DNA from: Megaustenia siamemsis | Taxonomy: Eukaryota; Mollusca; Gastropoda; Stylommatophora; Ariophantidae | Length of the DNA stretch: 64,000 nucleotides | Direction of reading: 5' to 3' | NCBI GenBank assembly: GCA_032433765.1 | Contig: JAVIAB010000159.1 | Span: forward strand, 56,780,542 to 56,844,541 | The notes under the pieces: model-generated | Told to the model about the DNA's origin: nothing | The model's input: the letters and a program-made list of their open reading frames with translations, nothing else | Database searches by the model: none | Made by a program: the position numbers and the translations under genes | In this document: positions 1-23,132 of the stretch, one piece after another | Numbering within the stretch: the first letter of the stretch is position 1 | How the letters are laid out: each line of letters begins with the position of its first letter

Positions 1-332
1 CTAGAATCTAAAGGGTTACCTACGTCTTTCAACGGAAAGCCCCCCAATGATAGCGCACCTAGCATTGTATCGCCGGCCCTGTGTACGAGGGCGTCAACGT
101 ATTTTTCGGTTGCTGCGTTTTGATCAGCATCTCGAGTATCCACATACTCTTTAGTAGCCGCATCGCTAGCCTCTAAAGGGTTCCCTACGGCTTTCAGCTG
201 GAAGCCCCCCAATGATAGGTCACCAAGCATAGTATCGCCAGCCCTATGTACGAGGCCGACTGGGCTGCCCCACGAGGCCGCCGCCGCTCCACAGCCGGTG
301 CTATGTCCCATATAAAACTTATCCACAGGCAT
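1..332 (-). CDS. Fibre-like protein with phage-tail-type repeats (partial, runs off the left edge)
   Basis: The ORF opens at 332 with MPVDKFYMGHSTGCG and stays open to base 1, so only about 110 N-terminal residues are visible. It holds two copies of a 55-residue (165-bp) repeat with the pattern GDTM..LSLGGF.LK.VGNPL, then a DAATKEYVD or AATEKYVD segment. The DAATK-YVD repeat is familiar from trimeric phage tail fibres, where it forms an intertwined beta shaft. A fibre or receptor-binding spike role is therefore inferred, not shown. The start is supported by an in-frame TAA shortly upstream and by a TGATG overlap with the protease stop codon, which suggests coupled termination and reinitiation. 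It is the last visible gene of the leftward structural set. Confidence 0.7.
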   Translation of the reverse strand, partial: MPVDKFYMGHSTGCGAAAASWGSPVGLVHRAGDTMLGDLSLGGFQLKAVGNPLEASDAATKEYVDTRDADQNAATEKYVDALVHRAGDTMLGALSLGGFPLKDVGNPLDS

Positions 333-943
333 CACACTCTCTGTTTAGCTATGTGTAAGATCACATTTTTAAAAGCATTTCCAGCTGCGAGTTCACACAA
401 CACTCGAAGACATAGGTGGCCGCAGATAACCTCTTCGGGTCTCTGCAGTTGGAACGTCTGTGTCTGTATAGGAAGACCCTCGCTGCGCGAAGCTTTTACC
501 CGTCCGGAGGACAGATATTCCACGAGTTCCTTGGGGGGATCCAACCCAAAACTATCGAAATAACAAATCGTACGGCCATCTTTGTAATACGCCACCCAGT
601 GGGTGCCCCCACCACTGCTGGAGTCGAGATTAACTATGCCGCATTCTTTCTGAGAAATCTTGTTAGGCAGGGTGTTTCGCGAAAACACGCCACGAAAGTG
701 GGGGATGGTACGGCCGGCCTTTTCAATATCAAAATTGCTCAGGGGTTCTACTTTTTTTGGGGCGCCAAGTAGAGCCCTGACCCTTACATTTAGGGCACAT
801 GCCGCGCCCCGTGCTCGCCGATGGGGCCAGAAACAACCCCGCACCAGCAAGCTGTTTCTCAACCTCACGATTGTGGCGTTCGGCCTCAGCCTGGGCTCGA
901 GCACTCGCTTTTTTATCGTCGACTGCTTTCGCGATAGCCGCAC
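332..943 (-). CDS. PRO: Adenain-type cysteine protease (virion maturation protease)
   Basis: This is the C5-family (adenovirus/Polinton) protease that matures capsid proteins inside the particle. Visible catalytic residues are His115 in GGGTHWVAYY, Asp130 in CYFDSFG, Gln167 and Cys174 in VICGHLCL. The Gln-to-Cys spacing of 7 equals that of adenain. The family-like domain starts near residue 66 (PLSNFDIEKAG). Residues 1-65 are a frame shadow of the upstream gene, and no Met lies close to the domain start. Expression may therefore need a frame change at the A7 run (752-758) from the upstream ORF, or the 943 start is used. A micro-repeat peptide (SSGRVKASRSEG, residues 145-156) is inserted between Asp130 and Gln167. 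The stop overlaps the fibre start as TGATG. Confidence 0.88.
   Translation of the reverse strand: MRLSRKQSTIKKRVLEPRLRPNATIVRLRNSLLVRGCFWPHRRARGAACALNVRVRALLGAPKKVEPLSNFDIEKAGRTIPHFRGVFSRNTLPNKISQKECGIVNLDSSSGGGTHWVAYYKDGRTICYFDSFGLDPPKELVEYLSSGRVKASRSEGLPIQTQTFQLQRPEEVICGHLCLRVLCELAAGNAFKNVILHIAKQRV
476..512 (+). repeat. Palindromic micro-repeat, copy A (long form), inside the protease
   Basis: A long-form copy of the element's interspersed micro-repeat. On the gene strand it starts GTCCTCCGGACGGG and ends GCGCAGCGAGG. It is read as SSGRVKASRSEG within the protease. It lacks one T at one edge relative to copy E. Confidence 0.8.
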
Positions 944-1244
944 TACCTCCTGCTAGCGACCCCGCTGCAGCGAGCCCGCCTAATATTAAGGGCAAAAACG
1001 GGAGAAACCCACCCGTTTTTTGAGCCGCTAGCTGTGTTTTGGAAATAACGAGCTCGGCCCCAGCACTGGCGGCGCGTTTCTTCTCAAGGTGAGCTATTTG
1101 GCGCTTAGTGAGCCCCAGGGTATCGTCGCCATGAAGCTGCTCAACCGTCAGCCGAATAGTAACGCCTACCCCATCATGGGCGGCTTTTGCCAATGATTCT
1201 TTCTGCCCCTGCGTAAGTGTTAACCCAAAAGGAGTATACTTCAT
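729..1244 (-). CDS. Minor virion protein with hydrophobic segment (Polinton PX-like)
   Basis: A 171-residue protein with layout typical of a Polinton/adintovirus accessory virion protein. An N-terminal part reads LTLTQGQKESLAKA and LTKRQIAHLEKK, with alternating short amphipathic blocks. Next comes a hydrophobic Gly/Ala-rich stretch, FLPFLPLILGGLAAAGSLAG (about residues 81-100), then a charged helix and a CPKC knuckle. A membrane-associated or membrane-lytic virion role is inferred from the family layout only. A TATAG motif lies 4 nt upstream of the ATG. The last 70 codons overlap the protease ORF. In relatives as I recall them, hydrophobic and protease parts can be joined; here a +1 shift at the A7 run (752-758) would join them. 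A 67-bp piece of this gene (1,070-1,136) recurs exactly at 11,528-11,594. Confidence 0.7.
   Translation of the reverse strand: MKYTPFGLTLTQGQKESLAKAAHDGVGVTIRLTVEQLHGDDTLGLTKRQIAHLEKKRAASAGAELVISKTQLAAQKTGGFLPFLPLILGGLAAAGSLAGGSAAIAKAVDDKKASARAQAEAERHNREVEKQLAGAGLFLAPSASTGRGMCPKCKGQGSTWRPKKSRTPEQF
1070..1136 (-). repeat. 67-bp segment duplicated in the hairpin array
   Basis: This stretch, encoding HGDDTLGLTKRQIAHLEKK, is identical over all 67 bases to 11,528-11,594, where it lies in opposite genomic orientation. The match ends abruptly on both sides. Confidence 0.95.
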
Positions 1245-1277
1245 TTTCCTATACTGTATATTGATGGAGATTTTTGT

Positions 1278-2576
1278 TTAATACAATTTGCTAAATTTCG
1301 TGCCGTCAGACTCTAGCGTCAGCAGCCGGTCGCTAATGAGCACTGCGTAGGCCATGGTTCCTGCTGGCACGTTGTTTCCAAAAGTCGCCCTGACCTGTAC
1401 GGTTTGGACAGCCGTTTTCAACCGCTCCGACTGTCTGCGGACATCGATGACGTGGATTGGGTATAATTCTACAAATTCGAGCGGAGTCACCTGGTTTGAG
1501 GACACGCTTCCCTCAATACCATAGTATTCTGCCTTAAAGTCACATAACCTCTTGTAAGCCCTGGAAATCTTTCGCTGTACAAAGTCCATTTTTTCCTCGG
1601 AGTCAGGATACTGATCGGTATTTAACCTCACATGAATGTCAGTTAAATTTACATGGTCAAAGCAAGCCGGATTGCTGGTCTGGCTATCGCGGTTGGTTTG
1701 GAAAGCCACCAAAAGCCATCGTGGTTTTTCAGTGCCCGACGTAATGGAGAGAGTCCAGGTAAACGAACTGGCTTCCGGCACGGCAAAGCTTTCGCATTGA
1801 AGAGCTCGAAAAGATATCGGCACCTTTATTTTAGCGCCTATCTGCTCTACTAGTTTGGTCTTAGCCTCCAGAGATGGCATGACGTGCGGTATTACCCAGG
1901 CAAGCTTAGTTAGCGTGACTTTCCCTCTAGGCGCCGCAGCATCGCGAAATATACCTTTGGTATCTGATTCACGAGATAATATCAACGAATGTTTACAACC
2001 ATAAACCACCTTGCGGTAGTCCTCGCAAAAACCGAACAGGTGGCTTAACGGGACGCAGAACGAAAACGTCCCGCTTGGATTCGGCTTGACCACTACTAGC
2101 TGCCGTCGGGCCTCCCACCCAGTATTAGCTGATTCAGCCGCCGCTGAGGTATCTTTTTGCCAGCACATGTTAAGACCCTCGGCCTTTGAAAAATCATCTC
2201 CATATGTCAACAGGCCCTTAATTGTTGTGGCTTGGCCAGGGTTGAGAACATTCTCAATATCTTGATCATTGAGCCGGTACCTTAGCCGCGAGAACATGTA
2301 CATAACGGCGTTATTCACGAGTGACACAAGCGTTGTAGGTGTGTAGTCGACTTCTGTGCCGGATGCTAGCCTCCCTTCAACATTGAGAAAACTTTTAGAC
2401 GGGTGTGTGTAAACGTCTTGGAAGTTTACTTCGATTGCTATATCCTGATTGTTGTTTATTGTGGCGGGGTTTTGTGGGTGATACTCCTTGTAGACGTACG
2501 ACTCGATGCTCTCGTCAACAAGCGTCTGCTCTACAAGAGTCAACATTTCATCGGTAATTTCTTGTGTATCCGCCAT
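1278..2576 (-). CDS. MCP: Major capsid protein, double jelly-roll
   Basis: A 432-residue protein of the size and feel of Polinton/adintovirus hexon-like major capsid proteins, which assemble as trimers of double jelly-rolls. The recognisable stretch is the middle, around residues 165-205: FSFCVPLSHLFGFCEDYRKV followed by GCKHSLILSR. It is preceded by LLTYGDDFSKAEG and followed by a C-terminal block rich in beta-prone segments. The ORF is intact, with no stop or frameshift. The start is MADTQEITDEM, and a TATAG motif lies 16 nt upstream of the ATG. It sits between the two small virion genes in the usual structural cluster. The identification rests on family resemblance by eye, with no structure prediction. 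Confidence 0.88.
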   Translation of the reverse strand: MADTQEITDEMLTLVEQTLVDESIESYVYKEYHPQNPATINNNQDIAIEVNFQDVYTHPSKSFLNVEGRLASGTEVDYTPTTLVSLVNNAVMYMFSRLRYRLNDQDIENVLNPGQATTIKGLLTYGDDFSKAEGLNMCWQKDTSAAAESANTGWEARRQLVVVKPNPSGTFSFCVPLSHLFGFCEDYRKVVYGCKHSLILSRESDTKGIFRDAAAPRGKVTLTKLAWVIPHVMPSLEAKTKLVEQIGAKIKVPISFRALQCESFAVPEASSFTWTLSITSGTEKPRWLLVAFQTNRDSQTSNPACFDHVNLTDIHVRLNTDQYPDSEEKMDFVQRKISRAYKRLCDFKAEYYGIEGSVSSNQVTPLEFVELYPIHVIDVRRQSERLKTAVQTVQVRATFGNNVPAGTMAYAVLISDRLLTLESDGTKFSKLY

Positions 2577-2613
2577 AGAAAATTTACTTCAGCTATAGAA
2601 ACAATTCTATTTT

Positions 2614-3018
2614 CTAATAAAGAATTTTTCTAAAACCCGAGCCTGCTATCCGACTGTTGATATTTTGACGTGCCGCTTCAGTCGTGGGGGCCGCAAGCCC
2701 ATGCAGAATCTCTAAGGTTTTTTCAGAGATAACTCTCTCCGGCCCTGTAGCGGCTCGCGTGGACGAGCGTGCTTTGCTGCGGACTATGTCAGCGATTTGC
2801 TTAATTGAGGCTGCGGTTGTAGCGGCGCCCTTAGCAACTTTACCGGCCACGTCCGCTACATTTGCTATAGCGCCTTTGTTTGCCACAACGAATTTACCGA
2901 AACCCCCAATAGCTCGCACCACGGGTTGTATCCAGTCCGACAGGCCTTTTCCGATTACATAGCGCTGTCTTTTCATCCGCCGGTTTCCCTCTGCCACGTT
3001 CCGCGAAATTATCAACAT
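2614..3018 (-). CDS. Small basic virion protein (pVI/pX-like), function unproven
   Basis: A 134-residue protein between the major and minor capsid genes. It has a basic start (MKRQRYVIGKG from a second Met at residue 15), then an amphipathic or weakly hydrophobic Ala/Gly/Val-rich segment (WIQPVVRAIGGFGKFVVANK, then repeated VAGKVAKGAATTAA) and a charged C-terminus ending SGFRKILY. Position, size and amphipathic character fit the small membrane-active or core proteins of adenovirus-like and Polinton particles. No catalytic motif is visible. The start at 3,018 has TATAG 18 nt upstream. The second Met at 2,976 is an alternative start that would give the more typical basic N-terminus. Confidence 0.6.
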   Translation of the reverse strand: MLIISRNVAEGNRRMKRQRYVIGKGLSDWIQPVVRAIGGFGKFVVANKGAIANVADVAGKVAKGAATTAASIKQIADIVRSKARSSTRAATGPERVISEKTLEILHGLAAPTTEAARQNINSRIAGSGFRKILY

Positions 3019-3076
3019 GGTAGCTTAGAAGATTTTCTATAATGACAGTCAAAATGTTTAATGTAAGAATTTTACT

Positions 3077-3853
3077 TCAAATCTGCCGAAGATGTAATCT
3101 AGCTGTAATTCGTTCCCCTCGGAGATTCAATTGAGAGCCATTCTGATCCGTTAGCCACAAGCGTATTCTTTGAATACTGCCACGCTGGCTTACCGGCAAA
3201 TAAACCAAATTGTGTGGAGTCTCAATGATCTTAAATCCAGGTTGTACGCCTGGGTAGAAGCTGTACAGAACGGGGTGGTTGGTGCCATTTAGGTAGGAAC
3301 CACTGACTAGATCGCAGTTTACAAGTATGCTACTAAGTGTTGAAATGTCTACTGGTTTGTCCCCTGTGTGGAATCCAGTAGTGGATAGCACCCTCGGCTC
3401 GAATCCGAGAGTCGACGCAATGGTAGATTTGCTCATGTCAACTCTGTAGCTAGGGTTCGTAATCTCGATGTTGGCACGTAATGTCGCCCTGTTTGCTCCT
3501 ACAACTATGTAATGTGCCTGCGTCTCAGAATTCCAATCACCGCTGCCCTTCAGCTGGCATTGAATCTCATCGTTGATTTGAGCGAGTTCGTAGCTTCCTT
3601 CTGGTAATGAAATTGTCTTCCAGGTAACCCCTGCGTCTGGGCTGTAGACGAAAGTATTATTACTTTCTGTAATGTTGGGGACAGCGTTATATGTCTCCAG
3701 GTTTACTAAGGATAATTCGTACTTATTGTCAGGGTCGAGGTAGAGGGGCGGAGAAAGTGTGGTTGTCCAGTCGGTGCTGTTTGACGAAAATACGAAAGAG
3801 TTACCCTCTTTAGGGCGAAGAAGCTTTTTAATTCCCTTTAGCTGAAACTCCAT
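3077..3853 (-). CDS. mCP: Minor capsid protein, single jelly-roll (penton-like)
   Basis: A 258-residue protein matching the Polinton minor capsid layout that forms pentameric vertices. The N-terminal block has FVFSSNSTDWTTTLSPPLYL and DPDNKYELSLVNLETYN. The central block has SLPEGSYELAQINDEIQ, a very characteristic family segment, and ATLRANIEITNPSYRVD. The C-terminal block includes TLGFEP and HNLVYLPVS before a final beta-rich WLTDQNGSQLNLRGERIT. The ORF is intact. A TATAA motif lies 13 nt upstream of the ATG. Its neighbours are the small basic protein downstream and the split protein upstream, the usual structural order. Confidence 0.87.
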   Translation of the reverse strand: MEFQLKGIKKLLRPKEGNSFVFSSNSTDWTTTLSPPLYLDPDNKYELSLVNLETYNAVPNITESNNTFVYSPDAGVTWKTISLPEGSYELAQINDEIQCQLKGSGDWNSETQAHYIVVGANRATLRANIEITNPSYRVDMSKSTIASTLGFEPRVLSTTGFHTGDKPVDISTLSSILVNCDLVSGSYLNGTNHPVLYSFYPGVQPGFKIIETPHNLVYLPVSQRGSIQRIRLWLTDQNGSQLNLRGERITARLHLRQI

Positions 3854-3866
3854 TTGGGGTATGCAG

Positions 3867-4112
3867 TTATAGGAGGCTTCTGTTCAATTCGAGAATCAAA
3901 TCCTTAGGAACCGCGCCACTGCGAAGGAGCTCGTCTAAAATAGCCGAAATTTCATTATCAAGGCCCGTATTACCTGCACGCTTCGAGGCAGCTAATAGCT
4001 GTAGCCTTTCAACTAGCGCTTCTGGATCCTTATAATATTGCAAAGCCCCACCTTCGCTGCGCGAGGACCTTATCAGCCGGTGTTTTTTGCTCTTTCGCCC
4101 ATGGAGAGGCAA
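3867..4112 (-). CDS. C-terminal part of a split Polinton virion-type protein
   Basis: An 81-residue ORF that looks like the C-terminal end of a conserved Polinton structural-cluster protein: a basic start, then YYKDPEALVERLQLLAASKR, AGNTG.DNEISAILDELLRSG and an acidic-hydrophobic tail. Its N-terminus overlaps the preceding ORF by 40 bases in the -1 frame. The open frame extends upstream of the Met through FQRLAELAGLPLHGRKSKK, which looks more protein-like than the same stretch in the upstream ORF's frame. The two ORFs probably descend from one gene. The frame could be restored by ribosomal -1 shifting at AAAAAAC (4,082-4,088), or a base was lost in the A4 run at 4,142-4,145. A short-form micro-repeat (4,051-4,068) is read as SSRSEG. 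Function unknown. Confidence 0.55.
   Translation of the reverse strand: MPLHGRKSKKHRLIRSSRSEGGALQYYKDPEALVERLQLLAASKRAGNTGLDNEISAILDELLRSGAVPKDLILELNRSLL
4051..4068 (-). repeat. Palindromic micro-repeat, copy B (18-bp short form)
   Basis: On the gene strand it starts GTCCTCGCGCAGCG and ends AAGG. Relative to the 36-bp form it lacks 18 internal bases, a multiple of three. It is read as SSRSEG, the same frame as in the protease. Confidence 0.75.
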
Positions 4113-4453
4113 GCCCGCAAGTTCAGCCAGCCGCTGGAAAGTTTTGCAGCCTCGGGGTATATTGCATCGTTTTTAAAAAAGCGCTTTGTAAGGAGATTGT
4201 AAAGCGACTCATCTGCCGGAGCTTCGAGCACTAGATTGTCTCCATTGTCGAACGCCCGCAGTTTCCCCGCCTGCAAAGCTTGCGGGTCGATTGTGAGGGA
4301 TCCAAACCGGTTTCCCTTCAGTTTCAACCCACTACCTGTAGCGGTAGCTGTAGCGGTAGCTGTAGCAGTAGCCCCACTAGATCGGACGAGCCTGTAACCC
4401 TGTGTTAGTAGGCGAAGACGTTCACTATATTGTTTTAGAGCGTCCTTTTCCAT
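4073..4453 (-). CDS. Middle part of a split Polinton virion-type protein
   Basis: A 126-residue ORF containing RFGSLTIDPQAL, GKLRAF, LVLEAPADESLYNLLTKRF and YPEAAKL. I recognise this as the middle of a conserved Polinton/adintovirus protein of unknown function, usually encoded beside the minor capsid gene. An Ala-Thr dipeptide run (residues 29-38) comes from a hexamer repeat of TGTAGC/GGTAGC at 4,337-4,375 on the plus strand. The ORF ends TGA at 4,073-4,075, ten bases after the in-frame heptamer A AAA AAC. The upstream ORF ends only 2 bases before this start (4,456 versus 4,453), so three adjacent ORFs appear to share one ancestry. Confidence 0.6.
   Translation of the reverse strand: MEKDALKQYSERLRLLTQGYRLVRSSGATATATATATATGSGLKLKGNRFGSLTIDPQALQAGKLRAFDNGDNLVLEAPADESLYNLLTKRFFKNDAIYPEAAKLSSGWLNLRACLSMGERAKNTG
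4082..4088 (-). promoter_or_regulatory. Candidate -1 ribosomal slippery heptamer A AAA AAC
   Basis: In the zero frame of the 4,453-4,073 ORF the codons read GCA AAA AAC ACC GGC TGA, so A AAA AAC sits exactly in the slippery register, 10 bases before the stop. A -1 slip enters the 3,867-4,112 frame (next codons CAC CGG CTG). A possible stem from the micro-repeat (CTCGCGCAGCGAAGG) lies just downstream. A homopolymer indel is the rival explanation. Confidence 0.4.
4337..4375 (+). repeat. Hexamer microsatellite TGTAGC/GGTAGC
   Basis: About six imperfect hexamers, in frame in the minus-strand ORF, give an Ala-Thr dipeptide run. Confidence 0.85.
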
Positions 4454-4455
4454 CG

Positions 4456-4989
4456 TTAATTGCTGCTTTCTTTCTTCTGTGGTGGCTTTACGCTTTTTTC
4501 CGCTCCCAGTACATATCGGTTGATGCGATTGACCTCATTGAGGGTGTTGGTGATTACTTGTGTGTCGCTGAGGTTGAGTTCGCTGGGGGGCTTAAATCCG
4601 TGGCGCCTTATCACTTCAATATCCAACCCTTGGTCGGGACTAATATATAGCGTGGGGGCATCTTCTACCGGCAGAGGCATGTCTTGACGTGCCGTCGGTG
4701 CCGCTCCGTGGAGTGCGTAGGCTTGTCTTGACGTGCCGTCGGTGTCCTCCGGACGGGTAAAAGCCTCGCGCAGCGAAGGTGCTGGCAAGCGCTCTATTGC
4801 GGCTGTGACTTTTCCTATCTCCGCTGCTTGGTGTGAGGTGATTGGTTTGAAAAGTTTGGCTGCCTCTTCCTGCAGAGACGACTCCCCTAGTGTTTCTGTT
4901 TGAAGGCGTTGCCGAGCCTGGTCCCTGAGTGCTAGGTAGTTCCGGACGAGGGCTGTACGATCGCGCATGTCGGTTACTTTGCGCCACAT
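4456..4989 (-). CDS. N-terminal part of a split Polinton virion-type protein, with micro-repeat insertions
   Basis: A 177-residue ORF. The N-terminal half is helical and charged, with LQEEAAKLFKPITSH, a pattern I associate with the N-terminus of a Polinton structural-cluster protein. The C-terminal half has LDIEVIRRHGFKPPSELNL followed by VITNTLNEVNRINRYVLG. Between them lie about 35 low-complexity residues made by a long micro-repeat (4,744-4,779, read in reverse as PSLREAFTRPED) and two copies of a second repeat (TDGTSRQ and APTARQD). The start codon lies inside the first of three 22-bp tandem units at 4,987-5,052. The protein is probably continuous in origin with the next two ORFs. No enzymatic motif is visible. 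Confidence 0.55.
   Translation of the reverse strand: MWRKVTDMRDRTALVRNYLALRDQARQRLQTETLGESSLQEEAAKLFKPITSHQAAEIGKVTAAIERLPAPSLREAFTRPEDTDGTSRQAYALHGAAPTARQDMPLPVEDAPTLYISPDQGLDIEVIRRHGFKPPSELNLSDTQVITNTLNEVNRINRYVLGAEKSVKPPQKKESSN
4681..4700 (+). repeat. Second micro-repeat GTCTTGACGTGCCGTCGGTG, copy 1
   Basis: An exact 20-bp copy of 4,725-4,744. A 14-bp core (TGACGTGCCGTCGG) also occurs inverted at 5,846-5,859 at the start of the integrase. Confidence 0.85.
4725..4744 (+). repeat. Second micro-repeat GTCTTGACGTGCCGTCGGTG, copy 2
   Basis: It abuts the long micro-repeat copy C directly. On the minus strand it is read TDGTSRQ, the same frame as SDGTSA in the integrase N-terminus. Confidence 0.85.
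4744..4779 (+). repeat. Palindromic micro-repeat, copy C (36-bp long form)
   Basis: It starts GTCCTCCGGACGGGT and ends CAGCGAAGG on the plus strand. The minus-strand gene reads it in reverse as PSLREAFTRPED, exactly as copy E is read. Confidence 0.85.
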
Positions 4990-5052
4990 CCTTACTTCAA
5001 ATAGATGTCATCCCTACTTTAAATAGATTTCATCCCTACTTTAAATAGATGA
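4987..5052 (-). repeat. Three 22-bp tandem leader-like units
   Basis: Units at 4,987-5,008, 5,009-5,030 and 5,031-5,052. On the minus strand each holds CTATTTRAAGTARGGATG, so each supplies a TATTTAAA-like box and an ATG. The ATG of the first unit is the start of the 4,989 ORF. The array occupies the place where the rest of the ATPase gene would be expected. Confidence 0.85.
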
Positions 5053-5071
5053 CTTCGGTATGTAGAATCGA

Positions 5072-5203
5072 TCAAATCCACATCAGGTTAGTCTTCCCAC
5101 ACCCGGAGGGGCCGCAGATTACACAACGGATGCTACTAGGAAGCAGCCAATTATGTTGTGGCTCGTGTCGATTTTCATCGCAATCTAAATTTAAGATTTC
5201 CAT
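5072..5203 (-). pseudogene. ATP: Truncated FtsK/HerA-type genome-packaging ATPase (P-loop remnant)
   Basis: A 43-codon ORF opening MEILNLDCDE and ending at a TGA just after the Walker A motif GPSGCGKTNLM. The N-terminal stretch WLLPSSIRCVICGPSGCGKT is the familiar beginning of the Polinton A32-like packaging ATPase, which pumps the genome into capsids. The family is normally over 200 residues. Walker B and the rest are absent, and the position is taken by three 22-bp repeats and the next gene. A deletion, or an intron leading outside the visible block, could explain this. No matching C-terminal part is seen elsewhere in the window. A TATAG motif lies 9 nt upstream of the ATG, so its promoter end is preserved. 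Confidence 0.75.
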
Positions 5204-5242
5204 AATACTCCCCTATATAGCTATATATAAATTTAGGAAGAG
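5204..5242. promoter_or_regulatory. Divergent TATA-rich promoter of the viral element
   Basis: Only 39 bp separate the leftward ATPase remnant from the rightward PLA2 gene. The stretch contains CCTATATAGCTATATATAAA, giving TATAG to the minus side and TATATAAA to the plus side. It splits the element into its two transcription directions. Leaders must be very short, or transcription starts in or near the coding region. Confidence 0.6.
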
Positions 5243-5800
5243 ATGTACTGCCTTCGCTGTAAACAACACACTCCCACTTCAAATGAGGAGACTATAACTC
5301 TAAAGAACAACCGACCAGCCAAGAGAGGTGTTTGCACGGTCTGTGGGGCTAGAAAGAGTCAAATTCTTTCTGCGTCCTCCTCGCGCAGCGAAGGTGCTGG
5401 GCTTCTGAACAGTGCTATGAATGCCCTACCTCTGCCCGAGATGCATATGCGTCTCCCCAAAGGGGTCCCATCTGAAGATGTCCCGGGTGGAACTTTTCAA
5501 AACACTGGAAAATACTCATATTGCGGGCCGTTTACCAAGATTGCCAAACGCCTCTCTCAGGGCTATAGGGGTGTGAATAGTCTTGATCGTGCCTGTCTAA
5601 ACCACGACGTTGCTTACGCAGCCCATAAAGATACCCCCGGACGGAATCATGCGGATGATGTACTGGCAGCTACCGCATCGCAGATTGCACTATCAGATGC
5701 TCCAGACTGGGAAAAGCGTGATTCTAAGACTGTTTCTGCGATTATGGCTGCGAAATCACGCTTCGGGATGGGCCTTAAAAAAAAGTCGCGAAGGAGGTAG
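5243..5800 (+). CDS. Zinc-ribbon plus phospholipase A2-domain virion protein
   Basis: A 185-residue protein with two parts. Residues 1-36 form a small zinc ribbon (Cys3/Cys6 and Cys31/Cys34) of the kind seen in DUF5679-type viral proteins. Residues 90-145 form a parvovirus-VP1-like phospholipase A2 domain: YCGPFTK as the calcium loop, then LDRACLNHDVAY with the catalytic His121-Asp122 pair and Tyr125, then RNHADDVL. Such domains hydrolyse phospholipids and help particles leave endosomes; that role here is inferred. The tail is basic (KKKSRRR). Micro-repeat copy D (5,374-5,394) supplies SSSRSEG at residues 45-51, in the linker between the two domains. The start follows the divergent promoter directly. 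Confidence 0.83.
   Translation: MYCLRCKQHTPTSNEETITLKNNRPAKRGVCTVCGARKSQILSASSSRSEGAGLLNSAMNALPLPEMHMRLPKGVPSEDVPGGTFQNTGKYSYCGPFTKIAKRLSQGYRGVNSLDRACLNHDVAYAAHKDTPGRNHADDVLAATASQIALSDAPDWEKRDSKTVSAIMAAKSRFGMGLKKKSRRR
5374..5394 (+). repeat. Palindromic micro-repeat, copy D (21-bp short form)
   Basis: It reads GTCCTCCTCGCGCAGCG then AAGG. It lacks 15 internal bases of the long form. It is in frame as SSSRSEG and lies in the domain linker. GTGCTGG follows, as in copy C. Confidence 0.8.
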
Positions 5801-5832
5801 TAGAAAATATTCCTAAACTGAAGAAGTTTTCT

Positions 5833-6858
5833 ATGGCAGAGAAGTCCGACGGCACGTCAGCAATCATGGAGAAATTCTACTACAGTCCTCAAGGCTATTG
5901 GCGTGGGCTGGCGGCCATCCCGAAGCTTGCTGCGGCAGCCCGAGTTAGCAAAAAGGATGCTCGGGACTGGCTCTCGAAACAAGACATATGGCAGCTCTAT
6001 TTGCCTGCTCCTCGACGAATACCACGGCCACATTTTAACGTGACTGCGCCAAACGAAGTTCATCAAGGGGATTTATTATATCTGCCGCATGATCGTGTGA
6101 AACGACGCACGTACAAATACGCCTTGACCCTCGTCGATATAGCCTCCCGGTACAAAGAGGCAGAGCCCTTGGCTACAAAAGATTCACAAGAGGTTGCAGA
6201 CGCCCTTGAGAGGATTTATAAACGGAGCCCTATGGATTTTCCAAAGCTTCTTCAGGTCGACCCGGGAAGAGAATTCATGGGCTCGGTATCATCACTTATG
6301 GCAAAACATGGGACTGAAATACGGCGTGGGCGTGTGGACCTCCATAGAGACCAAGGTATAGTAGAACGTTTTAACCGGACTCTGGCCGAGCGGCTTTTTG
6401 GTCACCAGTATGCTCAGGAGCTATTGCTTGCTGCCCGTGGGTCTTCTGAGCGGTCTGCAGAATGGGTGGCTCGACTCCCTGCGGTTGTTGCGGCTTTAAA
6501 CAATGAGCCGACTCGGCTGACAGGTAAGAAGCCTGTGGATGCCATTAAACTTCAGAGAGTGACTGCGCAACCCTCATCTGTCGTTCCAGGACGCCCTGTA
6601 GGGCTCGAGGAGCCGCTGATCCCGTCTGATGCAATGGTTCGGTATTTGTACCAGCCTGGCGAGCTCGAGGGTGGTCGAAAACGTGCTACTGACCCCGTGT
6701 GGTCTGTGACCCTGCATTCGATCCGAAATGTATTGCGGCAGAATGGCCAGCCTGCGGTATACTATTTGGAAGATGGTCCACAGCGTGGGTTTGTGCGTGA
6801 AGAGTTGATGATTGTTCCTGAGGGGACAGAGCTTCCTCCAGATGGGGTCCTCAATTGA
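5833..6858 (+). CDS. INT: Retrovirus-type integrase (rve), DD34E
   Basis: A 341-residue Polinton-type integrase that would join element ends to host DNA. The catalytic core has Asp80 (HQGDLLYL), Asp143 (QVDPGREFMG) and Glu178 (GIVERFNRTL), with 34 residues between the last two. The N-terminal region (YYSPQGYWRGLAAIPKLAAAA...) is the usual helical lead-in. A C-terminal SH3-like domain (about 270-332) runs from VRYLYQPGELEGGRKRATDP to GFVREELMIVP. The ORF is intact and all three acidic residues are present, so activity is plausible. The 5,833 start is used; Met12 (5,866) is an alternative that would exclude the micro-repeat-derived SDGTSA. It is followed 28 bp later by the DUF2314-like gene. 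Confidence 0.93.
   Translation: MAEKSDGTSAIMEKFYYSPQGYWRGLAAIPKLAAAARVSKKDARDWLSKQDIWQLYLPAPRRIPRPHFNVTAPNEVHQGDLLYLPHDRVKRRTYKYALTLVDIASRYKEAEPLATKDSQEVADALERIYKRSPMDFPKLLQVDPGREFMGSVSSLMAKHGTEIRRGRVDLHRDQGIVERFNRTLAERLFGHQYAQELLLAARGSSERSAEWVARLPAVVAALNNEPTRLTGKKPVDAIKLQRVTAQPSSVVPGRPVGLEEPLIPSDAMVRYLYQPGELEGGRKRATDPVWSVTLHSIRNVLRQNGQPAVYYLEDGPQRGFVREELMIVPEGTELPPDGVLN
5846..5859 (-). repeat. Second micro-repeat core, copy 3 (inverted)
   Basis: 14 bp (TGACGTGCCGTCGG on the minus strand) matching the core at 4,681 and 4,725. It encodes SDGTS at the integrase N-terminus. Confidence 0.65.
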
Positions 6859-6886
6859 ACACTTGCCGCTGAAGAATATTTCTACA

Positions 6887-7216
6887 ATGAACTTAATAGA
6901 TGCCCAAGGGATGCATCGTCGAAACCCAGACACATTTTGGGTCCCACCCGATAAAGAGCTTCTGGTACTGAATTGCGGTGACTTCGTAAAAGTATGCAAC
7001 GGAGAGGAGCGATTTTGGGTGGAGATTGTACATAGACGGCCTCCTATTGGGTGGAGGGGTGAGGCCTCTGAGGTGGAGTTTACTGGTGTAATTGACAATA
7101 AACTACTAAACCATAAGGCTGGCAAATGCGGGGACCTTATCAAATTTCAGGGGAAGCATATATACGATATATACCCTTCGCTGCGCGAGGCTTTTACCCG
7201 TCCGGAGGACGGCTAG
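6887..7216 (+). CDS. DUF2314-like small protein
   Basis: 109 residues from the ATG at 6,887, the first Met after the integrase stop. Upstream in-frame Mets at 6,812 and 6,842 would overlap the integrase. The central segment DTFWVPPDKELLVLNCGDFV.KVCNGEERFWVEI, followed by FTGVIDNKL and GDLIKF..HIYDIYP, matches the DUF2314-like family seen in Polintons and bacteria; function unknown. The C-terminus PSLREAFTRPEDG comes entirely from micro-repeat copy E, so the native end was probably near IYDI. Its TAG stop shares the tetranucleotide CTAG with the stop of the converging polymerase gene. Confidence 0.7.
   Translation: MNLIDAQGMHRRNPDTFWVPPDKELLVLNCGDFVKVCNGEERFWVEIVHRRPPIGWRGEASEVEFTGVIDNKLLNHKAGKCGDLIKFQGKHIYDIYPSLREAFTRPEDG
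7174..7210 (-). repeat. Palindromic micro-repeat, copy E (long form)
   Basis: On the plus strand CCCTTCGCTGCGCGAGG...CCGTCCGGAGGAC, read PSLREAFTRPED. It forms the end of the DUF2314-like gene and lies within 3 bp of the convergent stops. Confidence 0.85.
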
Positions 7217-10200
7217 GCGGCGATAAGTGCTGCGCCCCCTCTTTTTCGGTTGCAGTCCAGACAGGTCAGCCGTATGTTTCCTACGCAGTGGCCCTTGCTG
7301 TTGTCTAGCCGATCGACGCTAAACTGCTGCATATCAGCCGGCCGATACGACCACAACATTAGACAGTTACATGCAGCGCAATGGTTTTTTTGGGCCTCGT
7401 GAAGTTGCAATATGTAGTCAACTTTTAAGTCAAACCCAGGAAGTCCTTTTGCCTGGTCTAGACTCTTATAACTAACAAGCTTCCTCGATATTGTTGCGCG
7501 CACAGGCATGTACTGTGCTGTCAAATCGATTACATCTGCGGCTGCCTCGGCCGGCGGACACCCCACCCGTTTGAGCTGGTGACTATACTCCACCCGAGAG
7601 ACAGCCAGATACACGAGGTTGGACCACGTAAGCCAGTCGTCAATGATCCAGACCTTCTGTGGGTCAGAGATGGTAAGACCCTGGCTAGAATGGATCGTCA
7701 AGGCATAGCCCAGGCGCCAATCATCAGTCGTGATAGCACTCTCAGCTGCAGCTATCGATACCTCTACAACATCGTTGAGTACGAGCACTTCCTTGTTTTC
7801 TGTTCCAGGTATGAGGACCTCAATATTTTGCTTCCTGCTGTCCTTGGGGTGATACAGCAGAGGCACAGGGACATCTTGGAACTGCTCCTTATGCCGCTGG
7901 AATAAGAGCGTCTGTGCCCGATCGCGGACCTTGGTGCGTGAGACCAGTATAAGATCTCTTGGCGTCCAGTCTTTAACAAACCTATTCCACTTGAGGCAGC
8001 CTGGGAGGGCCTTACGCATTTCTTCGCACTGGACCTTGTCAGACTGAAGCCGGATACGCCTTTTCAGAGCTTTTAGCTCCTCGTCTTTCGCTCTGTGGTC
8101 GACGGAAATCTCTTCGTAGTAGCCGCAGGTTTCCTGTAGCCAGTCATGGGGCATGCCACCAGCGATCGGTGGCGGCTGGCCTTGATCACCGCAACATATG
8201 ACCTGGACCCCACGTTGATCGAGCCACCCCAGGAACAACTCCAGGATAGGCTTTGACACAGTGCAGACTTCGTCCCATATGATGACACGGGGAATGTATT
8301 TTTCGCCCATGCGCTCAGGCGTCCAGTCAACATCTGCAATCTGCGGACCTTTCTGATTACTTCCAGGTACATGGAGAGATTCCCCTACCTTCCGGGAGAC
8401 AAACTCTATAACCTCTCCCTCACTGTCAATCAGCTTCATTCGCCAAATGATAATAGATTCCCGGAAGTTATACTGTTTAACCTTCCCCTCACCATCTATC
8501 GTTAACAGCAACTCATCACTTGCGGTCCAATCCTCTTTTGTCTTCCAAACGGTAATAGGTCTCTTGTGTTTTTTCTGCAACACTGCTAGGTCCTCCGCAG
8601 TCGCCTTAGCTCTTCTAGTCCCACACCAACGGAAGAAGCTATGGTAGGTCTGTGATTTAACCCCCCTGGTCCGCATCTCTTTGGCCAGACGATGGGTATG
8701 AGTAAACACGATGGGATCTCTCTCACGGAATAGCTCGATCGCTCTCGTTGTCTTGCCGGAGCCGCCTCCGCCATTCAGGTAACAGAATCGATGTCTCGAC
8801 AGTGGGTCGTCGTAGCGTGGCGCTGCGCTATTCTCCATAATTGACAGGACGTAAGTGTCATACTGGCTGATGTACTCGGGCTTTGGAAGGTAGGCAGCGT
8901 GCTCCTTAGGCTCGTACAGCCTCTCGCCCTTGTCGCGCCACTGGGCCGGGCCAACTGTTGGAGGAAGCATCACCATCCCACCTTCTTTGCAGTTGTCACA
9001 TTTGCTTTTTTGGCAATCACACCGAGGTAATACAGCACCCTCGTTGCTGTGTGATGGGTGCCAAATGCAATTACAATAGCAGGGTGCCTTGACGGGTTTA
9101 TTTTTCGGCACGTATGCCTCGACCCCCTCGAGCTTATGCAGCGCCGTTTTCTTGAGATATATGCTGTCAGTGGCGACCCGGACGGCCTCTGTGGGATCAA
9201 ATCTGACCAGCATTGTGACGAGGTTGATATGGGCGTAGGCCAACATGCTGGCGCGTAGATGCGCGTACTGAGGCTGGCTGCCGTCGTGATATGTAAGTAT
9301 CCACCCTAGAGGGAATTTCTCTGGAGCTCCGACCAGAGTGCCACTTTGCATCGTGTCGCGAACCAGGTAGTCGAGCTCCCCCTGGTCAGTCACTAGCCTG
9401 CGGGTCAACCTTTTGCAGCCAGCTTTCCTCCCTTGTGTAAATTTGCCGATGATTGCACAGCGGACATCGCGACCTTCTGGCAGCCAGACCTCTTCCTGCT
9501 TCTCGAAGGCCAGCAGGGCCTCTCTGACTCTGAGATGGACAAGCAAGCCGGTCTCTACAAAGAAGGCCAGCAGCGGCGTCGGGGCCCACCTCTTTTCCGC
9601 GAAATGTCTTCCGTACCAGGCAGGTATGACAGGATGACAGTTGTCTGTCCACACCCATTCTTGGACCTCAGCGAAGCCGGTGCCTATGTCGGTGGGGAGA
9701 GGACCATTGATGCTGACCCTGGTCATGCGGTGGCCCGGATGTCCAAACCGTTGGAACCATGGCGCAGCCTCGCCATTGCCTAGGAAGCTGGCGGGGTAGC
9801 ATTCCTTCATGTCGATGCAGACGATATCTTTTAGGGTGTAGTCCATCGAATTCCAGAGCCCACCGTGCCCGTGTTCCACGCAAGCCTTTTGCACATCACC
9901 GAGAATGCTTGCTGGGGTCGGCCTCCATCCGTTTTTCTTAACAGCGACGAGGTTGGATGCGTGGTTGTCACTGAAACACCGTCTGGCGAGCGACTCCAGA
10001 TCACCCAAGTCAGTATCATCAAATGACACCTCACTGGCCAGGCGTTCACAAGCCGTCACGATTTTGTCGTGATCTGTACGCTTCTTAAATGTTCGACCGT
10101 CTTGAAGAACAAACTGGTCGACGGCGAGCCGCCCTTCCGAGGAACCCCCCAGAAGCCAGACTGCAACCGGCGCACCCTGGGTGGCTTCTCTGATGGCGTC

Positions 10201-11244
10201 CACAATGCCACCCTCGTAGAAGTGGACCTCCCTGCTAAGCGGGAATTGTAGGTCCTTACTCCACGCGTGGCCGTTGTGAACGATGAGCTCTATGTTGCGG
10301 TGCCCGTTTTGATACTTGCCGCTGCAGTATATAATCCCACCGGCTATGTCCCGCAAGATGATGGCTCGTTTGAGGATCTTTTCCAGTTCAGCCACATCAT
10401 TGATCGTGGCCCCGGGTCTACGAACTCGTTCCTCCCAATCCCGTATTTTTTGCCGTCTGGTGGGTGTTAACCCTTGTCCTCGAAGAGCGTCTTCAAAGTG
10501 CGCTATCACGCTCTGAGCAACACAGTTCAAGTCACCGTCGCGCAGCGGTGCTAGATTGGCAGGGTCTGGGTCTCGGATCTGGTAGAGACCGTACACGACC
10601 GCGGACTCTGGATAACCTTTTTCGTAATACGGCTTGTCGATCCCTGTTAGCGCGCCAGGCTTCATATCCCGAGAAAACTCGACAATACCACCCCCCTTTT
10701 TGATTTCCAATTTAATCGGGTCAAATTTATCTCTGATAACCCACTCCTCCTCGGGTTCTTCTACATTGCTGTTCCAAGCCTGTCTGAGAAATTTGATCTT
10801 ACAAAGGAACCTACCCCACGGGAAATATTGAATGAGCCTTGCTGCCCTCTCGTCAGTCATAGTACAGACATCTTTGTCGTCCTCCGCCCTCTCTACACAC
10901 CATGTAGAGTAAGTGCGAACGGCACCGTCTACTTCAAACTCCTCCTTGGCCTGGGCAATGAGATCAACCCACGGCTCTCCCACTGGGAGTGGGATAGGGT
11001 GAGGTACCACCACATCCAGATCATTAAATCGCAGGTCCTTCCCGGGCGATGGGATCAGAGGCTTCGCTAGCCTCTTCTTTACATCCTTTGGGATGGGCCA
11101 GTCCAAGATGCTCTGCGCCCGATGTTGGGCCAGCCTGTCTGCCAGATCCTGTAGAGCCAGACCTGACCTTGGATAAGGGGGGCGAACACCCGTCTCTCGC
11201 TCATATTCAGCTCGGAGTATGAGCGCTCGCTCATGATGCAACAT
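7213..11244 (-). CDS. Family-B-like DNA polymerase - SF1 helicase - HNH nuclease fusion
   Basis: An intact 1,343-residue replication protein. Polymerase palm: motif A IDMKECYP (Asp478), a motif B-like region GSQPQYAHLRASMLAYAHI (655-673), and motif C RVATDSIYLKK (Asp693, with Ala691 where family B usually has Asp). A seven-Cys cluster (722-752) may bind zinc. SF1 helicase: Walker A YLNGGGGSGKTT (Lys831), Walker B IIWDEVC (Asp991-Glu992), motif III CCGDQGQPPPI (1017-1027), motif V ALTIHSSQGLT (1181-1191) and motif VI VYLAVSRVE (1211-1219). C-terminal HNH: CAAC (1289-1292), DRLDNSKGH (1311-1319), N1323 and CLDCN (1328-1332). The exonuclease motifs are not clear; residues 235-345 carry a conserved-looking DLNC...VHNGHAW region. 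It presumably replicates the element. TATAC lies 10 nt upstream of the ATG. Canonical Polinton polymerases lack the helicase and HNH parts. Confidence 0.88.
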   Translation of the reverse strand: MLHHERALILRAEYERETGVRPPYPRSGLALQDLADRLAQHRAQSILDWPIPKDVKKRLAKPLIPSPGKDLRFNDLDVVVPHPIPLPVGEPWVDLIAQAKEEFEVDGAVRTYSTWCVERAEDDKDVCTMTDERAARLIQYFPWGRFLCKIKFLRQAWNSNVEEPEEEWVIRDKFDPIKLEIKKGGGIVEFSRDMKPGALTGIDKPYYEKGYPESAVVYGLYQIRDPDPANLAPLRDGDLNCVAQSVIAHFEDALRGQGLTPTRRQKIRDWEERVRRPGATINDVAELEKILKRAIILRDIAGGIIYCSGKYQNGHRNIELIVHNGHAWSKDLQFPLSREVHFYEGGIVDAIREATQGAPVAVWLLGGSSEGRLAVDQFVLQDGRTFKKRTDHDKIVTACERLASEVSFDDTDLGDLESLARRCFSDNHASNLVAVKKNGWRPTPASILGDVQKACVEHGHGGLWNSMDYTLKDIVCIDMKECYPASFLGNGEAAPWFQRFGHPGHRMTRVSINGPLPTDIGTGFAEVQEWVWTDNCHPVIPAWYGRHFAEKRWAPTPLLAFFVETGLLVHLRVREALLAFEKQEEVWLPEGRDVRCAIIGKFTQGRKAGCKRLTRRLVTDQGELDYLVRDTMQSGTLVGAPEKFPLGWILTYHDGSQPQYAHLRASMLAYAHINLVTMLVRFDPTEAVRVATDSIYLKKTALHKLEGVEAYVPKNKPVKAPCYCNCIWHPSHSNEGAVLPRCDCQKSKCDNCKEGGMVMLPPTVGPAQWRDKGERLYEPKEHAAYLPKPEYISQYDTYVLSIMENSAAPRYDDPLSRHRFCYLNGGGGSGKTTRAIELFRERDPIVFTHTHRLAKEMRTRGVKSQTYHSFFRWCGTRRAKATAEDLAVLQKKHKRPITVWKTKEDWTASDELLLTIDGEGKVKQYNFRESIIIWRMKLIDSEGEVIEFVSRKVGESLHVPGSNQKGPQIADVDWTPERMGEKYIPRVIIWDEVCTVSKPILELFLGWLDQRGVQVICCGDQGQPPPIAGGMPHDWLQETCGYYEEISVDHRAKDEELKALKRRIRLQSDKVQCEEMRKALPGCLKWNRFVKDWTPRDLILVSRTKVRDRAQTLLFQRHKEQFQDVPVPLLYHPKDSRKQNIEVLIPGTENKEVLVLNDVVEVSIAAAESAITTDDWRLGYALTIHSSQGLTISDPQKVWIIDDWLTWSNLVYLAVSRVEYSHQLKRVGCPPAEAAADVIDLTAQYMPVRATISRKLVSYKSLDQAKGLPGFDLKVDYILQLHEAQKNHCAACNCLMLWSYRPADMQQFSVDRLDNSKGHCVGNIRLTCLDCNRKRGGAALIAA

Positions 11245-11329
11245 GTTGAGTTTGGTATATTCATAAGTTCACATTTCTCGAATTGCCAATTTCAATCCTT
11301 GCTAGACGTTTAAACTCCTTCTGAAATAA

Positions 11330-11990
11330 TAGGGGTGGCGGGGGCTAGCAAAGTGGTACCCACGAGAGGGCGCCAGCGGGGTAGCTCTGGGGGGGCTTAT
11401 TCGGCCGGGCGTGAGACAAAAGATACGCGCCCGTGGGCCAGTCAGCCGCGTGCGTTGGACCTCCCAGAGGCAACAGCAGCGGGTACCTCTGGGTGGGGGC
11501 TATTCGGCCGGGCGTGCGAAAAAGATACTTCATGGCGACGATACCCTGGGGCTCACTAAGCGCCAAATAGCTCACCTTGAGAAGAAACGCGCCGGCCCGT
11601 GGGCCAGTCAGCCGCGTGCGTTGGACCTCCCAGAGGCAACAGCAGCGGGTACCTCTGGGGGGGGGGGCTATTCGGCCGGGGCGTGCGAAAAAGATACCCA
11701 CCAGCGGGGTAGCTCTGGGGGGGGCTTATTCGGGCGTTGGACCTCCCAGAGGCAACAACAGCGGGTACCTCTGGGGGGGCTTATTCGGGCGTTGGACCTC
11801 CCAGAGGCAACAGCAGCGGGTACCTCTGGGGGGGGGGGGGCTATTCGGGCGGGGCGTGCGAAAAAGATACGCGCCCGTGGGCCAGTCAGCCGCGTGCGTT
11901 GGACCTCCCAGAGGCAACAGCAGCGGGTACCTCTGGGGGGGGCTTATTCGGGCGGGCGTGCGAAAAAAAGATACCGACCCACAGTCCAGC
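11330..11990. repeat. G-rich hairpin array upstream of the polymerase gene
   Basis: A mosaic tandem array built from GCGCCCGTGGGCCAGTCAG, GTTGGACCTCCCAGAGGC, AGCGGGTACCTCTGGG and TTATTCGGGCGGGCGTGCG modules, with G runs of 7 to 12. Five copies of an inverted repeat CCCAGAGG / CCTCTGGG with a 15-nt loop lie at 11,463-11,493, 11,629-11,659, 11,745-11,775, 11,800-11,830 and 11,907-11,937. It could be the terminal repeat region, an origin or an enhancer. Plus-strand ORFs through it are low-complexity and probably not genes. Confidence 0.85.
11528..11594 (+). repeat. Captured 67-bp fragment of the minor virion gene
   Basis: Identical to the coding strand of 1,070-1,136. It is flanked on both sides by array modules and interrupts one unit of the array. 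Confidence 0.95.
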
Positions 11991-12867
11991 CGCGCCCTTT
12001 GCTGCTGAAGTGGTTGGAGGTATAAGTGTGAGTAGTACTCAGTAAATCGTACATGGAGTATGTAATATACGTTTTGGTAGTGCTAGGAGAAACAAAGGTG
12101 TGTCATGAGTAACTGTGATAGACAGAATGATGAAATACGATGTGTAGATGAGAGGGCACAGAGCGAGAAAGACAAGAGGGATAAGTAGAAATGATGTATT
12201 TCTTGTTCATGGCTCTCTTGTCTGAGAGTGTGTGGCAGATGTTATAATCTATTTACACTATTCATTTGTTACTTCGCCATTATTATTTAAACGAAAGTGT
12301 TATATTTGGTGCTGTATAGCTTGTTATTTTTGTCTTCCTTCAGGTTGAGCAATAACAATAATATTTGCTTTGGATGAAGAACAGACAAGATTGTGTGACC
12401 AACATCAGGACATTCGATTTATAAGACAACCTTTCTGTGTCCCACACTTTTATAAAAGCCAAAAATATCCACATTTTTATAGACTCTGACATTTAAGTTT
12501 TCCCGTCAAGGGTACGGGACAATTTAACTCTAAAGACAAGTGCATTTTTTCATGAAGTATTTAAGTTTTGAGGTAAATAATTGTTTTCTGTGTTCAACAA
12601 CTACAGACATTATAAGTCACGTACAAGCTACAAGAGAGAAATCATAAACCATGTATTATACGATTTACAAAAGACACGAGCATTCTCAAATATCGTAAAA
12701 GACGTTTATAATGAAAACTAAAACAAACTTTGGATTATAGCGGTAAACAATTGGTTCAATGTAGAGCAATGGGAGAAAGGATTCAATTTTAATTAAATTA
12801 AAGGATTAAATGTGACAATAAAAACAAGTAACTAAATAATTATTCATATACATTGTTTTTTGCTTGG
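11991..12867. other. Boundary zone and AT-rich host DNA
   Basis: Base composition changes from GC-balanced viral sequence to AT-rich sequence between about 11,990 and 12,060. No terminal inverted repeat can be assigned because the other viral end is outside the window. I see no gene to 12,867. Confidence 0.5.
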
Positions 12868-15058: not shown

Positions 15059-15427
15059 GGTGTCCGGTTAGCGCAATCGATAGGCGGTTGGCTTACCACG
15101 GCAACAGCCAGGGTTCGTTCCCTGGCGAGGACACCTGGGTTTTACTAATTCCCTAAAAATTAGTAGGAGCCGCGATAGCTCAGTGGTTAGTGAACTGGAC
15201 TACTACGGACAAGGGGTAGGGTTCGATCCCAACCGACGGCTCCGGGTTCACCCAGCCTTAAATGGGTACCGGATTTTTTCTGGGAAAGTAAAAAGCAGCA
15301 CGGGCGTAATACCGACCACATTACCCAAAAATCATGTGCTGAAGGTCTGTAAAATATAGGGTCACTAACACCATATTTCCCTATACGCCACTTGGCGTGA
15401 CGGGGGGTACTTCACTTTACTACTTTT
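15059..15427 (+). mobile_element. Dimeric tRNA-derived SINE (SINE-1 head plus SINE-2)
   Basis: Two tRNA-like heads stand in tandem. The first, 15,059-15,135, has a 7-bp acceptor match (GGTGTCC/GGACACC), an A box TAGCGCAATCGATAGG and a B box GGTTCGTTCCC. The second, from 15,166, has GGAGCCG/CGGCTCC, an A box TAGCTCAGTGGT and a B box GGTTCGATCCC, followed by a SINE body ending in CGCCACTTGGCGTGACGGGG. A 13-bp target duplication, ACCTTCCAATTRG (15,046-15,058 and 15,428-15,440), shows that both entered as one unit. Confidence 0.85.
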
Positions 15428-22830: not shown

Positions 22831-22874
22831 CTCCATTGAAACTTGCAGATAAGACGAGAGTAATGGGAAACTGG

Positions 22875-23132
22875 GAGACGCGATTACTCAGTGATTAGTG
22901 AACTGGACTACAAAGGACGAGAGGTAGGGTTCGATCCCAGCCGAAGGCTTCCGGGTTCACCCAGCCTTTAATGGGTACCGAATTTTGTTCTGGGAAATTA
23001 AAGCGGCACGGGCGTAATACCGGCCACATTACCCTAAAAATCATCTGCCGAAGGTATGTAAAATGTATGGTCACTAACATCATATTCCCTATACGCCACT
23101 TGGCGTGACGGGGGTACATTACTTTTTTTAAA
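22875..23132 (+). mobile_element. SINE-2 copy
   Basis: tRNA-like head with TTACTCAGTGATTAG and GGTTCGATCCC, and the shared body ending GCCACTTGGCGTGACGGGGG. A 13-bp target duplication, AATGGGAAACYGG, lies at 22,862-22,874 and 23,133-23,145. It is inserted in the minisatellite-linked repeat copy D1. Confidence 0.9.

Follow-up and report, generated by a model that had tools for sequence, protein, structure and literature searches.

Why would a virus carry a DNA polymerase palm, a helicase and a nuclease on one protein chain? The question is raised by a Polinton-type element in the gastropod Megaustenia siamemsis, which lies at the left edge of the window, the 64,000-nucleotide stretch of contig JAVIAB010000159.1 (positions 56,780,542 to 56,844,541) analysed here, and by its replicase, which we call P0001. 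We consider it likely that this open reading frame (ORF) encodes a replicase of the 'Tlr1-like helicase' kind, a fusion of a protein-primed family-B DNA polymerase with a superfamily 1 (SF1) helicase (pPolB-S1H), that it ends in an HNH nuclease and derives from an integrated Polinton-type virus, and that it works much as proposed below. Its parts are as follows.

7213..11244, minus strand: putative pPolB-S1H-HNH replicase ORF (P0001), 1,343 amino acids (ORF calling, homologues, shuffles)
10576..10977, minus strand: terminal protein (TP)-like alpha/beta region, residues 90-223 (secondary structure of the predicted model)
10246..10575, minus strand: OTU-type cysteine protease region, residues 224-333, with Cys241 and His323
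9925..10236, minus strand: segment between the OTU region and the palm (residue 54 is the first of phi29 to be aligned)
9130..9924, minus strand: protein-primed-type family-B palm, residues 441-705 (motif A Asp478 at 9811-9813; motif C ATD, 691-693, at 9166-9174)
8800..9129, minus strand: linker with a seven-Cys cluster, residues 706-815, not conserved
7525..8799, minus strand: PIF1/RecD-like SF1 helicase, residues 816-1240 (profile and structure matches, motifs, conservation)
8299-8595, minus strand: lineage-specific helicase insert, residues 884-982 (alignment)
7216..7461, minus strand: HNH nuclease, endonuclease VII-like, residues 1262-1343 (PHROG 2.2e-11, motif pattern)

A preliminary description of this DNA had reported an intact frame of this length at these coordinates, correctly, while giving no strand. 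The frame runs for 1,343 codons with zero internal stops; when these 4,032 bases were put through 200 mononucleotide shuffles, the mean length of the longest open frame was 153 codons, and it never exceeded 342. Given this result and the 57 homologues found at E <= 1e-3 among 7,986 candidates scored, P0001 is a genuine gene. Conservation was counted over 58 rows, P0001 plus these homologues, and columns of at least 90% identity make up 130/318 of the helicase, 107/265 of the palm, 33/74 of the HNH domain, 37/110 of the OTU region, 27/95 of the exonuclease-like region, 14/78 of the linker and 22/126 of the TP-like region.

The preliminary description knew of no formally named family with this domain order. 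Such a family has in fact been described: in the relevant passages of PMC11071308, where Krupovic, Yutin and Koonin 2016 are cited for the group, Tlr1-like helicases have an N-terminus that varies, a middle domain at the place of a TP, a vOTU bearing Cys and His, a palm of the protein-primed type with the first motif-C Asp changed, an SF1 helicase and a terminal GIY-YIG or HNH nuclease that differs between polinton-like viruses (PLVs), and 'pPolB-S1H fusions' is proposed as the name for these proteins of PLVs, Tlr1 and transpovirons. Of eight listed family features P0001 has five and lacks none of those tested, and on this ground the claim of an unnamed order falls: the palm is of the protein-primed type, its first motif-C Asp is changed, a vOTU with catalytic Cys and His adjoins it, a PIF1-like SF1 helicase lies C-terminal to it, and the chain ends in one of the two nucleases found in part of the family, here HNH. 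The order from TP-like region to C-terminal nuclease, the lost Asp and the PIF1-like helicase all agree with published accounts (PMC11071308, PMC12721341, PMC4642659); P0001 is placed with the family by comparing order and residues with these descriptions. The outcome that the preliminary description had named as its own refutation, an already named polymerase clade, has thus largely come about, except that the clade was named from PLVs, Tlr1 and transpovirons and not from canonical Polintons.

The N-terminal half bears on how synthesis might begin. The OTU-type region, which the preliminary description overlooked, keeps Cys241 in 50/50 and His323 in 52/52 non-gap rows. Upstream, the TP-like region gave no match to known folds, and what is seen there is the alpha/beta pattern and a candidate priming residue, Tyr211, which sits between a predicted helix (204-209) and strand (213-223), is kept in 45 of 49 non-gap rows and is missing from four fungal rows (P0048, P0055, P0056 and P0058; alignment A1). 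Under a published rule for linking residues (PMC11071308), we infer that Tyr211 could serve as the primer. Downstream, the structural alignment to phi29 polymerase leaves the first exonuclease motif outside, and P0001 may hold an exonuclease remnant. A phi29-like palm, a TP-like region upstream of it and an OTU region whose Cys and His are both intact fit ordinary protein priming, so the different initiation mode claimed for this protein is not supported.

The helicase carries the SF1 motifs that had been reported (GGGGSGKTT with K831, D991-E992, GDQGQPPP, HSSQGLT and YLAVSRV). Between two of its motifs, 4 of the 58 proteins (P0001, P0011, P0017 and P0018) have an insert of 83-111 residues, in P0001 modelled mostly with low confidence; the rows bearing it fall at three places of the tree described below, for which the fewest changes are 3.

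Is the terminal nuclease a working part or a passenger? The HNH pattern was found where the preliminary description had put it, and it is complete at the same position in 38 of the 43 homologues that retain the motif VI zone, the other 14 of the 57 falling short of that zone and hence outside the count. Among the five exceptions, the tail of P0041 has diverged beyond match, P0048 enters the HNH domain and then stops, and P0051, P0056 and P0057 terminate 22, 0 and 35 residues past residue 1225; counted by HNH coverage, the domain is present in 40 of 41 rows, P0001 included. Conservation this firm suggests that the domain has a function when the DNA is replicated, integrated or packaged. We think it rather unlikely that the HNH domain entered the gene as an invading homing endonuclease and plays no part in replication: GIY-YIG and HNH homing nucleases have been reported in such viruses (PMC11071308, PMC12220804), and the C-terminal nucleases of Tlr1-like helicases have been interpreted as invasions of this kind (PMC11071308), but the fixed position of the complete pattern and the conserved HNH columns argue against it here. 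In cryptophyte PLVs, as described in part of PMC12220804, HNH is fused N-terminally to helicases and GIY-YIG C-terminally. The conservation thus sets a testable role for the nuclease against the published reading of invasion.

The palm poses the second difficulty. The predicted structure backs the family-B-like fold that had been claimed and assigns it to the protein-primed type, while sequence-profile searches with P0001 gave no support for a palm fold. The two catalytic residues named earlier, Asp478 of motif A and Asp693 (the second Asp of motif C), are each kept in 56/58 rows; the first motif-C Asp is present in none of the 58, with Ala in its place in 53, and motif B reads IIGKF against LYGKF in phi29. 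The lost Asp and the altered motif B weigh against an active enzyme and leave room for another account, in which the palm survives as a relic without catalytic activity, the protein serves as a helicase-nuclease, and the genome is copied by another polymerase. This was the 2016 position on Tlr1-like helicases, as recounted in PMC11071308, which itself takes their palms to be active in its 2024 reading. For P0001 we regard the account as unlikely, since the two Asp residues are retained, the palm is conserved to the same degree as the helicase, which fits an active polymerase, and family-B polymerases missing the first Asp include active enzymes (PMC11071308). The seven-Cys cluster noted beside the palm is present in P0001 but is not family-wide, the linker holding 0 to 8 Cys across the alignment and none in 9/58 rows.

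From domain order, predicted folds and residue conservation, which are observed, we infer how a pPolB-S1H replicase of this kind might operate, that is, its activities, its priming residue, the cleavage step and what the HNH domain does. A hydroxyl of the TP-like region, perhaps that of Tyr211, would prime synthesis at the termini of a linear genome, and the phi29-like palm would elongate the strand using Asp478 and Asp693 in its altered motif C. The adjacent OTU protease would then sever the primed TP region from the polymerase. The fused helicase would unwind the duplex and may compensate for a reduced exonuclease, and the HNH domain would cleave branched DNA or DNA ends as the genome is replicated, integrated or packaged.

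The neighbouring genes are those of a Polinton-type element, as had been claimed, with an rve integrase, a double-jelly-roll capsid protein and a weak match to adenovirus protease.

5833..6858, plus strand: rve-type integrase (PF00665, 2.9e-10)
5243..5800, plus strand: phospholipase-A2-like protein with DUF5679 (PF08398, 1.2e-8; PF18930, 5.6e-13)
3077..3853, minus strand: possible minor capsid (penton) protein, the role suggested by position and size (weak Pfam matches; DUF5901 at 4e-4, below cut-off)
1278..2576, minus strand: double-jelly-roll major capsid protein (PF21738, 1.5e-57; 138 relatives)
332..943, minus strand: probable adenovirus-type protease (PF00770, E 0.0055, below cut-off)

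Over the element the GC content is 47-57% in 2-kb steps, dropping to about 33% near 12.0 kb, where the stretch ends. The left window edge truncates the element, and neither a packaging ATPase nor terminal inverted repeats were seen in window positions 1-12,500.

How does P0001 compare with other replicases? With canonical Polintons and adintoviruses the element shares the integrase, the capsid protein and the probable protease, and the palm of P0001 resembles an adintovirus polymerase model (3.7e-5). However, P0001 differs from their polymerases in motif C and probably in the exonuclease, and we rejected that identity because their pPolB, as described in parts of PMC11071308 and PMC12721341, has no fused helicase or HNH domain, both of which lie in the same ORF here. 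The helicase SF1-pPolB of OmPLV (Oxyrrhis marina) likewise holds an SF1 helicase and a pPolB in a single chain, but its order is reversed relative to that given for Tlr1 and transpovirons, with the helicase first, and its exonuclease domain is complete (PMC12721341); this type was set aside because the helicase of P0001 lies C-terminal to the palm. Tlr1 too pairs its replicase with an rve integrase (PMC11071308), whereas its nuclease is GIY-YIG and that of P0001 is HNH. An independent origin of the fusion in an animal Polinton lineage, merely resembling Tlr1-like helicases, seems improbable: the element does combine an rve integrase with an animal-type capsid gene family, and helicase and pPolB have become fused separately in at least one other case (PMC12721341), but the order, the motif-C loss, the vOTU and the kind of C-terminal nuclease are all as published, and the integrase is shared with Tlr1.

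The sources of its relatives, which are named from molluscs, a coral and mycorrhizal fungi, set P0001 apart from the Tlr1-like helicases of the papers cited here. Among the matches listed, the best 120 of 248 in a second search, are proteins from the animals Elysia crispata, E. marginata, Sinanodonta woodiana and Desmophyllum pertusum and from the fungi Diversispora, Gigaspora, Rhizophagus, Cetraspora, Racocetra, Acaulospora, Ambispora and Paraglomus. Elysia are sea slugs, Sinanodonta is a mussel and Desmophyllum a coral; the fungi are arbuscular mycorrhizal. Relatives of the capsid protein (best 120 of 138) include proteins of Ylistrum balloti and Mytilus edulis, and early Polintons were previously reported from Glomus intraradices (Rhizophagus irregularis) (PMC7805220). 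The relatives and a flank rich in repeats suggest an invertebrate host. In a quick tree without bootstraps, built on 48 rows (the ten others were dropped from the 58 for gaps) from the columns of the OTU region, palm and helicase and rooted on P0046, P0051 and P0054, P0001 falls within a 17-row set with SH-aLRT 97 and a branch of 0.36; 9 of the 45 inner branches are open, and the branch of P0057 measures 3.85. One relative (L001 1496-2805, 54% in the best segment) is on a 3.2-kb contig labelled as a Diapherotrites archaeon metagenome-assembled genome (MAG) and others are filed under Candidatus Thiodiazotropha MAGs; these are probably misbinned eukaryotic or viral contigs.

For comparison, phi29 DNA polymerase has an exonuclease, DTD as its motif C and a terminal protein on a chain of its own, and no helicase is fused to it.

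We tentatively suggest, as a possibility short of an expectation, that these proteins mark a distinct pPolB-S1H virus lineage across molluscs, coral and mycorrhizal fungi, with the nuclease a fixed working part and with primer, releasing protease, polymerase, helicase and branched-DNA nuclease in one chain. If so, a single chain would amount to an almost complete protein-primed replisome, and its strongly conserved palm would speak for Tlr1-like palms as active polymerases, which bears on the published change of mind; the 58-protein alignment gives a basis for asking whether such a palm still makes DNA, on which the 2016 and 2024 readings disagree. The architecture itself was already described from microbial viruses, namely protist viruses and giant-virus plasmids; less expected are its presence in elements from both animals and mycorrhizal fungi and the firmly kept nuclease. 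A limited literature search found no title or abstract reporting the fusion in either host group, which is not a claim that it is absent from print.

Several repeats accompany these genes. The element contains three copies of a 36-41 bp repeat (477-517, 4743-4780 and 7175-7215), the third of which overlaps the replicase's final codon; the repeat's 30-base core has 3 matches against 0 in shuffles. The ORF at 3-335, truncated by the left edge, gave no Pfam match and has internal repeats (1-93 and 166-258, 85% alike) reminiscent of fibre-shaft repeats. Outside the element, dispersed copies at 15166-15331 and 22874-23039 (83-93% alike), in which ARAGORN called no tRNA, begin in the manner of a tRNA gene and could represent a host short interspersed nuclear element. 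At the element's right-hand border lies a GC-rich repeat array (repeats 11389-11968), within which a 67-base piece (1070-1136) of the ORF at 729-1244 recurs inverted, with full identity, at 11528-11594.
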